DNA of 41,917 nucleotides from a virus, in the IMG/VR virus record IMGVR_UViG_3300034012_000266, positions 1 through 41,917 of that record. One strand, 5' to 3'. Position numbers and translations under genes: made by a program. The notes beneath the pieces are model-generated. The model saw nothing but the letters and a program-made list of their open reading frames with translations. It did not search any database and had not been told where the DNA came from. Of this stretch, positions 3,035 through 4,716 are shown in pieces (position 1 is the first letter of the stretch; each line of letters starts with the position of its first letter).

Positions 3035-3283
3035 ATGATCGAGGTCATCGCTGCTGTTGCTGGGGCTTCCATCAGCGTTGCCGCGATGGGCGCAATGGGA
3101 TTCACCCGTCGCAATGATGAAGCGCGTGATGCGGTCATCAGGTTGACTTCTGCTGTGGAACACATTGCCACGCAACTTGAAGTGCTGCATACCGACATCA
3201 AAGACGACCGGCGGGAAACATTCCAGCGGTTGAATACGGTTGAACAGCGCGTGAGTAAACTAGAAGCACATCCGCACGGTTAA
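3035..3283 (+). CDS. small membrane protein with coiled coil, holin/spanin-like candidate
   Basis: An 82-residue protein with one N-terminal hydrophobic segment (about residues 3-22, IEVIAAVAGASISVAAMGAM) followed by a charged helix (about 30-78, VIRLTSAVEHIATQLEVL...ETFQRLNTVEQRVSKLEAH). One membrane anchor plus a periplasmic or cytoplasmic coiled coil, directly upstream of another membrane peptide and the endolysin, fits a class III-like holin or an inner-membrane spanin. Which of the two it is cannot be decided from sequence. Confidence 0.65.
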   Translation: MIEVIAAVAGASISVAAMGAMGFTRRNDEARDAVIRLTSAVEHIATQLEVLHTDIKDDRRETFQRLNTVEQRVSKLEAHPHG

Positions 3284-3285
3284 CC

Positions 3286-3426
3286 GTGGAGTTTCTGTCT
3301 CATCCCGCTTTTTGGATTCTTGTTGCGGCTGCCAGTGAGCTGATTGCCCTGTCACCGCTCAAGAGCAATAGCATCATTCAAATGGTGTTTCAAATCCTGC
3401 GTCTGATCAAGGCAAAAAAGGTCTGA
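3286..3426 (+). CDS. 46-residue holin-like membrane peptide (zero-frame product)
   Basis: Starts at GTG 3286, 3 bases after the previous stop, and ends at TGA 3424-3426. It has one hydrophobic stretch at about residues 7-23 (AFWILVAAASELIALSP) and an amphipathic, basic C-terminus (IIQMVFQILRLIKAKK). Position just before the endolysin and this build suggest a holin or holin regulator. Its last codons GCA AAA AAG contain the heptamer A AAA AAG, the same site used for -1 frameshifting in E. coli dnaX. See the extension at 3420-3665. Confidence 0.65.
   Translation: MEFLSHPAFWILVAAASELIALSPLKSNSIIQMVFQILRLIKAKKV
3414..3420 (+). promoter_or_regulatory. candidate -1 programmed frameshift site (A AAA AAG)
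   Basis: In the frame of the GTG at 3286 the codons read GCA AAA AAG GTC TGA, so the heptamer is in the correct phase for tandem slippage. A short hairpin CCGCT-TAG-AGCGG lies at 3455-3467, farther away than the 5-9 nt usual for a stimulator, so the stimulatory element is unclear. Confidence 0.5.
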
Positions 3427-3665
3427 TCGGTTTCGGTAAAGCAGGCTGGCAGCGCCGCTTAGAGCGGGCCATCAATGACTGGTGGTTCTACAAGACGCTG
3501 CCTGCCAAGCTGGACAAGGCCGAAGCCGACTGGCACGCAACTCAACCACCGGCCACCTCACCACCTGTTGTGGTAGAACATCCGATTGACCCTGAGCTAC
3601 AAACTGGCGAAAGTCAATTGCTCGGCGGTCCCATGAGTATCCACGCACCCTGGAAACGTGACTAA
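3420..3665 (+). CDS. -1 frame extension of the holin-like protein
   Basis: The -1 frame is open from 3372 to TAA 3663-3665 and has no ATG, GTG or TTG near its beginning. The sequence entered after slippage reads GLIGFGKAGWQRRLERAIND and continues with WWFYKTLP, a Pro-rich stretch and IHAPWKRD, 81 residues. A -1 shift at 3420 would give a 126-residue fusion with the membrane segment at its N-terminus. The tail overlaps the endolysin start (GTG 3658) by 8 bases. The alternative is a simple frameshift mutation or sequencing error in the A6 run. Confidence 0.5.
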   Translation, partial: GLIGFGKAGWQRRLERAINDWWFYKTLPAKLDKAEADWHATQPPATSPPVVVEHPIDPELQTGESQLLGGPMSIHAPWKRD

Positions 3666-4716
3666 CAAAATCCGCCTGCTTGATCTGTGCAAGTATTACA
3701 AGGCATTGCCTCACCAGATGGCTGGCATCAGCGAGCTGGAGGAGGCGATCAACAAAGCCAACCCGCATATCCTCGGACGCGAGCAGGCGTGGTTCAAGAC
3801 ATGGAGCCAAGGCGGCAAGCAGCAGGATTACAGCCCTGCGGTAAAGCTGATCAAAGAATTTGAAGGTTGCCATTTGAGCGCGTACCCAGACCCACTGCAC
3901 GGCTGGGACGTTGCAACCATCGGCTTTGGCACCACCCGCTACCAGGACGGTCGCAAGGTAAAGGAAGGCGACAAAATCACCGTGATTGAAGCGGATGAGT
4001 TGCTGCTTGAGGAAGTCGAACGCATCGCCAAGCATTTGTACGGCAAAATCCCGTACTGGAATGACATGCTGGTAACGCAGCAGTCTGCGCTAATCAGCTT
4101 TGCCTACAACCTTGGCGCTGGTTTCTACGGTTCCGCTGGCTTTGAAACCATCAGCAAGCGACTGGGCGAGAAAGATTGGGCCGCCGTACCTGATGCGCTG
4201 AAGCTCTACCGCAATCCCGGCACCAATGTCGAAGCTGGGTTGCTGCGCCGTCGCGTTGCCGAGGGCAACCTGTGGCGTGACGAGTTGCCGTCGGCCAAGG
4301 TAGCGCCATCGAGCCCATTTAGCGCCAAACTTACGCCAAACTTCACGCTGGGCGAATTTGCCCTGGGTGATCCGGCCCGGCGCTTCACGGCTCAGCATCA
4401 GGTGGATACCGCCATTGAGCTGGCCAAGTTCCTAGAGCGTGTACGCACTGCATTTGGCGACAAGCGCGTCACCATTACATCTGGCTATCGCCCGCCAGCA
4501 ATTAATCGATCCGTTGGTGGCGCATCAGCTAGCGAGCACCTGTTCAATGCAACTGATGTAGGCGCTGTTGATTTTTACATTGACGGTGCAGACATCAACA
4601 AGGTTCAGGCATGGTGCGATAAGGAGTGGCCATATTCGCTCGGCTATGGTGCGCCTAAGGGTTTCGTGCATCTTGGCATACGGCAAGGCCGACCACGCGT
4701 GCGCTGGGATTACTAG
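3658..4716 (+). CDS. bifunctional endolysin: GH24 muramidase plus M15 peptidase
   Basis: A 352-residue lysis enzyme. Residues about 58-205 are a T4/P22-type lysozyme (GH24): KEFEGCHLSAY with the expected catalytic Glu at E69, followed by TIGFGTTRY and a helical lobe (LLLEEVERIAKHL...ALISFAYNLG). Residues about 222-352 are a peptidase M15-type domain, with TSGYRPPAINRSVGGASASEH giving ligand H294, then D305 (GAVDF) and H338 (FVHLG) to complete the zinc site. It would cut both the glycan and the peptide cross-links. The first ~55 residues are helical and unassigned. No signal peptide is seen, so export would rely on the upstream holin-like proteins. The GTG start is chosen because it is the first in frame after the upstream gene. 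Confidence 0.92.
   Translation: MTNKIRLLDLCKYYKALPHQMAGISELEEAINKANPHILGREQAWFKTWSQGGKQQDYSPAVKLIKEFEGCHLSAYPDPLHGWDVATIGFGTTRYQDGRKVKEGDKITVIEADELLLEEVERIAKHLYGKIPYWNDMLVTQQSALISFAYNLGAGFYGSAGFETISKRLGEKDWAAVPDALKLYRNPGTNVEAGLLRRRVAEGNLWRDELPSAKVAPSSPFSAKLTPNFTLGEFALGDPARRFTAQHQVDTAIELAKFLERVRTAFGDKRVTITSGYRPPAINRSVGGASASEHLFNATDVGAVDFYIDGADINKVQAWCDKEWPYSLGYGAPKGFVHLGIRQGRPRVRWDY

Follow-up and report, generated by a model that had tools for sequence, protein, structure and literature searches.

At positions 3286..3426 on the plus strand of the window, by which we mean the whole virus record of 41,917 bases that was analysed, a GTG-initiated reading frame encodes a holin-like membrane peptide of 46 amino acids, with a predicted transmembrane (TM) segment at about residues 7-24 and a K/R-rich C-terminus. 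The frame ends GCA (3412-3414) AAA AAG (3418-3420) GTC TGA (3424-3426), which places a slippery heptamer, A AAA AAG (3414..3420, plus strand), one codon ahead of the stop (3424..3426, plus strand). The -1 frame opens GGT CTG ATC from 3420 and continues for 81 codons to a TAA at 3663-3665 (3420..3665, plus strand), encoding an 81-residue C-terminal extension composed of a Trp-rich helix and a mini-domain, HPID-x-x-LQTGESxLLGGPMSIHAPW; the predicted fusion has 126 amino acids. Past the site, no in-frame ATG, GTG or TTG occurs before the GTG at 3570, which leaves only 31 amino acids. On re-reading, the coordinates, the codons (GCA AAA AAG GTC TGA) and the start-less -1 frame of 81 codons given in the initial annotation all hold.

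The stop of the -1 frame overlaps the GTG start (3658) of an endolysin gene (3658..4716, plus strand) with Phage_lysozyme (PF00959, E 3e-22) and Peptidase_M15_3 (PF08291, E 8e-18) domains and a match to the endolysin family phrog_28234 (E 8e-137). Upstream, at 3035..3283 on the plus strand, lies a gene for an 82-amino acid protein with an N-terminal TM segment and a coiled coil, which matches phrog_26178 (E 7e-43) and is weakly XhlA/hemolysin-like (phrog_937 "hemolysin", E 0.007). The short peptide itself, a small TM protein with a single hydrophobic segment and an adjoining endolysin, has the features of a holin-type protein. It matches phrog_22542, whose function is unnamed, and no curated holin family was matched (none in Pfam or NCBIfam, and only PHROGs of unknown function); the family libraries searched gave no lysis or holin label for either the short peptide or the extension. 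Relatives of the upstream 82-amino acid protein also occur in several T4-like cyanophages. The N-terminal ~50 residues of the endolysin (3658-3830; YYK-x-LPHQ-x-AI-x-x-LE...) recur at the head of unrelated cyanophage lytic enzymes, among them the S-SRP01 glycoside hydrolase, S-PM2p153 and S-EIVl AHV82130, and it is possible that this segment is a shared targeting or partner domain.

The -1 frame peptide as query recovered 80 IMG/VR loci, and with the short peptide as query up to 454 IMG/VR stretches were found to encode relatives; no relatives of the short peptide were found in bacterial or archaeal genomes. After deduplication there were 177 distinct loci with the full downstream module, here called module-bearing, and 12 module-less loci. 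An X XXY YYZ heptamer was present 0-1 codon before the stop in 176 of the 177 module-bearing loci vs 0 of the 12 module-less ones, and well over 150 distinct viral loci keep the arrangement. The single exception, L141, reads A AAG AAG and retains just the A_AAG tetramer. The zero-frame end position was identical in every module-bearing locus examined, and the stop, which may be TGA, TAG or TAA in relatives, is always 0 or 1 codon past the heptamer where the module is present. At least four valid heptamers occupy this same place (A AAA AAG, C CCA AAG, G GGA AAG and A AAA AAC). By itself A AAA AAG is not rare, with 3 copies in the window vs 4.7 expected, and its significance here lies in its conservation and not in its rarity.

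The module-less lineages (L244, L245 and L247, with the short frame at 1501-1635; L275; L281; L282-L287; L305) serve as natural controls: in them the short frame extends up to the endolysin start or overlaps it, and either the codons of the slippery site have drifted or the stop is displaced. An endolysin tree, built quickly and containing long branches, indicated that the state combining site and module was gained or lost at least five times, with heptamer type only loosely tied to endolysin phylogeny, and therefore the arrangement does not trace to one frozen lineage. The initial annotation had suggested counting whether the heptamer and the downstream frame are kept together in relatives; they are kept together, and they are lost together. 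It had also named two observations that would speak against a frameshift, a relative with both parts in one uninterrupted frame and a degraded downstream frame. No relative of the first kind was found, and far from being degraded the downstream frame shows purifying selection, as described below. In two candidates for in-frame fusion, P60 gp39 and S-SRP01 QPD06465, the short peptide does continue in frame, but into an unrelated tail and without the module.

Codon choice at the site is constrained beyond what the encoded residues need. In first-clade loci AAA AAG is preceded by GCA, GGA, CCA, GTA, ACA, TCA, GAA, ATA or CAA, so that an A invariably stands in front of AAA AAG while nine different residues (A, G, P, T, V, S, E, I and Q) are encoded. 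In the rest of the same frames lysine is encoded by AAG 149 times and by AAA 104 times, and alanine uses all four of its codons. In the second clade, where the site encodes Phe-Pro-Lys, it reads TTC CCA AAG in all 58 of 58 cases, while only 10 of 115 other prolines are CCA. The module-less L275 and L281 keep the residues F-P-K-R with non-slippery codons, TTC CCT AAG in one and TTT CCG AAA in the other. A check of codon-level conservation around the site, which had also been proposed, found codon choice frozen only at the site, where the heptamer lies in the right frame and is kept beyond amino-acid need.

The -1 ORF is a conserved coding frame without a start of its own. Its median pairwise dN/dS is 0.21 (0.15 for the zero frame), and it is under purifying selection; ATG, GTG and TTG are absent from -8 to +12 codons in most loci. 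The most conserved stretch of the extension, in an alignment of 61 relatives, is HPID-x-x-LQTGESxLLGGxMxIxAPW. AlphaFold2, run with these 61 relatives, modelled the extension with a mean pLDDT of 84.6 as a long helix (9-40) followed by a small strand-helix-strand C-terminal end (strand 50-53, helix 63-68, strand 72-75). The model had no fold match among solved structures (PDB). In a viral structure library the best matches were F4YCT5, A0A0C4K3N2 and S-PM2 Q5GQH8, the first two of which probably represent the proteins of S-CBS3 and S-EIVl, to judge by identity and length.

Shuffles of synonymous codons that preserve the protein and its codon usage revealed an excess of RNA structure directly past the heptamer (mean z -2.67, 63 distinct sequences). 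For 26 representatives the mean z was -2.9 just past the heptamer vs -0.75 and +0.38 in later parts of the -1 ORF, and the same shuffles of the endolysin gene gave means between -1.35 and -0.03. The excess was also seen in the C CCA AAG clade (mean z -1.9) and in isolates (-2.1). In the window's group a candidate stimulator is an 11-bp stem whose 5' arm (3427..3437, plus strand) begins 6 nt past the heptamer and whose 3' arm (3519..3529, plus strand) closes an 81-nt loop with inner hairpins at 3444-3454/3496-3506 and 3468-3474/3480-3486. Across 35 relatives 91% of cells in this stem are paired, and in L027 the stem is kept though 13 loop codons are absent. We consider it a plausible candidate only, because its covariation was not above that of column shuffles, with 2 pairs showing two-sided change. 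An upstream stimulator of the Shine-Dalgarno kind was discarded, as AAGG directly adjoins the heptamer, closer than the dnaX type allows. A milder structure excess (mean z -1.35) marks the first part of the endolysin ORF in relatives, at offsets of about 30-146 nt, where it might possibly exert translational control of the endolysin.

The site is present in seven cultured Synechococcus phages: S-CBS1, S-CBS3, KBS-S-2A, S-EIVl and the T7-like S-B28, WH11-B and 7B11-B. Synechococcus phage S-CBS3, with an endolysin 65% identical to that of the window, is the nearest annotated phage found with the gene. Among S-CBS1, KBS-S-2A and S-EIVl the heptamer G GGA AAG occurs. In the T7-like phages TAA directly follows A AAA AAG in the zero frame, and the -1 frame ends ...GEDGWSISLTSPW or ...SISLTAPF. 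None of the isolate records examined annotates a frameshift; the extension is either missing, as in KBS-S-2A, where no gene is called for it, or called from an internal start, as in S-CBS3 gp22 (L081:3433-3600), S-EIVl AHV82131 (L333:1671-1907) and S-CBS1 gp23 (L335:1659-1871).

From this comparison of sequences we conclude that a programmed -1 ribosomal frameshift at 3286-3665 is almost certainly real, and that selection demonstrably keeps the slippery site, the adjoining stop, the extension and the downstream structure together. The proposal of the initial annotation that a frameshift fuses the short peptide to a start-less frame is thus upheld by the joint retention of heptamer and module, the frozen codons and the purifying selection. 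The other ways of making a second product, or of explaining the junction away, fit the same observations poorly. Separate translation of the -1 ORF, through an internal start or through xTGA coupling, in which ribosomes re-initiate at the stop, would make the heptamer incidental; it draws some support from the second -1 codon, which overlaps the stop and is often CTG and sometimes TTG or GTG. We nonetheless rejected it as very improbable, because that codon is often CTA or TTA (CTA, TTA, GTA, ATA or ATC in 44 distinct loci) and there is no start at the T7-like sites; most loci, moreover, lack a start codon in the interval given above, and re-initiation leaves the frozen heptamer codons unexplained. 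Slippage of RNA polymerase on the A run of the heptamer seems scarcely credible: A AAA AAG does offer an A6 run, but six is short for slippage, and transcriptional slippage was rejected on the C CCA AAG (58 loci) and G GGA AAG sites, which keep the arrangement with only three A. A homopolymer run at the junction might also point to an error of sequencing or assembly, or to a pseudogene split by mutation, an explanation of negligible probability that is refuted by relatives and isolates, since the same junction recurs in hundreds of contigs and in the seven cultured phages, with four heptamers and no in-frame versions.

The putative identity of the gene as a lysis gene, also put forward in the initial annotation, is supported by context, namely synteny and the fact that T4-like cyanophages have homologues of the module next to their endolysin genes. 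In siphoviruses the frameshift gene lies between the TM/coiled-coil gene and the endolysin. In T7-like phages it lies between a TM/coiled-coil gene and terS, and T7 has its holin gene 17.5 at the corresponding place. The gene directly upstream in the T7-like S-B28 and WH11-B encodes an 81-amino acid protein of the same TM and coiled-coil build.

The module is also encoded apart from the slippery site. In Kyanoviridae (T4-like cyanophages) it occurs in a single uninterrupted ORF behind an unrelated N-terminal TM segment (FGKKK...TM) that appears to be oriented N-in/C-out, which would place the module in the periplasm. Carriers of this phrog_3316-type include S-PM2p159, S-SRM01 gp280, DSL-LC03 WJZ48034 and MA01 WVQ00241, and genes of the type were located at L349:22832-23230 (S-PM2p159), L351:1300-1692, L352:3192-3605 and L353:1852-2244. 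S-PM2p159 matches phrog_3316, has a lipobox-like LSSC and an N-in anchor, and was related to the module by profile comparison (E 2e-6), although the homology is remote (30% over 57 columns). The Kyanoviridae homologues are found near endolysin, RlpA-like or lysozyme (tail-tip-lysozyme) genes. A standalone form in another virus group (L083-L105, e.g. L086:4001-4285), on contigs up to about 85 kb, comprises 94 amino acids, starts at an ATG of its own and has a Trp-rich helix at the N-terminus, and no signal peptide is evident on it. Its neighbours are SAM-decarboxylase-like, primase-like and sugar-metabolism genes, and no lysis gene was recognised in the flanks read, so the module may serve something not tied to a holin.

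The best explanation overall is probably a frameshift gene that gives two membrane isoforms of a lysis cassette. Most ribosomes would stop at 3426 and release the 46-amino acid single-TM peptide, while a fraction would slip on 3414-3420, with tRNA-Lys re-pairing from AAA AAG to AAA AAA, and produce a minor isoform of 126 amino acids; slippage would probably be aided by RNA structure starting about 6 nt downstream. Both products would act in a cassette made up of the upstream TM/coiled-coil gene, the frameshift gene and the endolysin, the short form as a holin-type membrane peptide. Less certainly, the long form may co-assemble with the short form through the shared TM segment and set or couple its action, as an antiholin or timing subunit would, a reading that we put forward tentatively. 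Alternatively, and this we hold somewhat doubtful, it could present the module as an effector tethered to the membrane, working with the endolysin or acting on the envelope. The antiholin role is an inference, and its lead over a spanin-like role in the envelope, tethered by the holin, is slight.

If the long isoform were a membrane-anchored envelope effector, spanin-like or a partner of the endolysin, the frameshift, real as before, would merely spare a separate anchor gene. This possibility, which we rate below an even chance, is suggested by the Kyanoviridae proteins, where the module sits on an unrelated N-in/C-out TM segment near endolysin, RlpA-like or lysozyme genes, by the lipobox-like motif of S-PM2p159 and by the AlphaFold2 shape of a long helix with a small C-terminal domain. 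The N-in/C-out anchor of the Kyanoviridae proteins suits an envelope role no less than an antiholin one. However, the siphovirus short peptide carries its positive charges after the TM segment, suggesting N-out/C-in, the opposite of the Kyanoviridae orientation, and a cytoplasmic extension is therefore predicted; the remoteness of the Kyanoviridae homology and the lack of an evident signal peptide on the standalone modules also argue against an envelope effector. It is unlikely that the small membrane protein and its frameshifted isoform work outside lysis, for example in the virion, in entry or in takeover of the host membrane. The family libraries gave no lysis label, standalone copies lie among primase-like, SAM-decarboxylase-like and sugar genes, and the S-EIVl frameshift gene is on the opposite strand from nearby lytic genes, all of which would suit such a role, but endolysin synteny in siphoviruses, the position like that of T7 17.5 in Autographiviridae and the lysis neighbours in Kyanoviridae oppose it. 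Returning to the two-isoform lysis gene, we lean towards the view that this is a tailed DNA phage lysis gene built on a programmed -1 frameshift, making a 46-residue holin and a 126-residue isoform at a ratio set by the ribosome, kept across cyanosiphoviruses and T7-like cyanophages, and carrying a portable envelope module found as a separate gene in T4-like cyanophages.

Both -1 frameshifting and holin genes with dual products are already known kinds, and known frameshifting in tailed phages is mainly in virion assembly genes such as those for tail chaperones and capsid proteins. The initial annotation knew of no described phage lysis system of such a build, and we likewise found no frameshifted holin or lysis gene of DNA phages in the open literature (subscription papers and preprints fell outside this scope); the mentions of slippery sites or frameshifts that we found concerned tail, capsid or other genes, and the word holin is absent from the accessible text of a 2016 recoding review. 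Nor did we find a described holin for lysis in cyanobacteria. Frameshifting in such a lysis setting would be a new use, of which no published description was found. If this is true, translation would set the proportion of two membrane isoforms, which in lambda depends on a pair of start sites. The arrangement is widespread in cyanophages and was missed in every annotated isolate record examined. The frameshift gene offers an experimentally tractable route into cyanobacterial lysis, and the module, present in three phage families, a starting point for tracing an envelope or lysis function as yet unnamed.

Among known systems, E. coli dnaX has the same heptamer with the same preceding GCA, as the initial annotation had recognised, and RNA structure downstream, but it is a different gene, and a Shine-Dalgarno-type stimulator at the dnaX spacing is not established here. 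The A AAA AAG sites of the IS3 family are similar in that the zero frame stops shortly past the site. In place, the T7-like gene corresponds to the T7 gene 17.5 holin, between the tail fibre gene and terS, although it has no family match to a known holin, and the siphovirus gene, between an XhlA-like gene and an endolysin, corresponds to PBSX xhlA-xhlB-xlyA cassettes; to our knowledge neither T7 17.5 nor PBSX-type lysis genes have a known frameshift. The phrog_3316-type proteins of Kyanoviridae share the C-terminal module (LGGxMxIxAPW) and the nearby lysis genes, but they are encoded by an uninterrupted ORF with another N-terminal anchor, N-in/C-out. Lambda gpG/gpGT likewise has a minor, C-terminally extended isoform and heptamers such as GGGAAAG, in a tail chaperone, whereas the present case is a membrane gene and a candidate for lysis; the -1 frameshifts of tail-assembly chaperones are conserved over many phages (Xu, Hendrix and Duda 2004, cited in PMC5009743). 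Another parallel is lambda S, where one gene with an adjoining endolysin gives two nearly co-linear membrane isoforms, holin S105 and antiholin S107, at a set ratio. In lambda these arise from two starts and differ by 2 N-terminal residues, whereas here the isoforms, predicted from sequence, would differ by an 81-residue C-terminal extension added by frameshifting.
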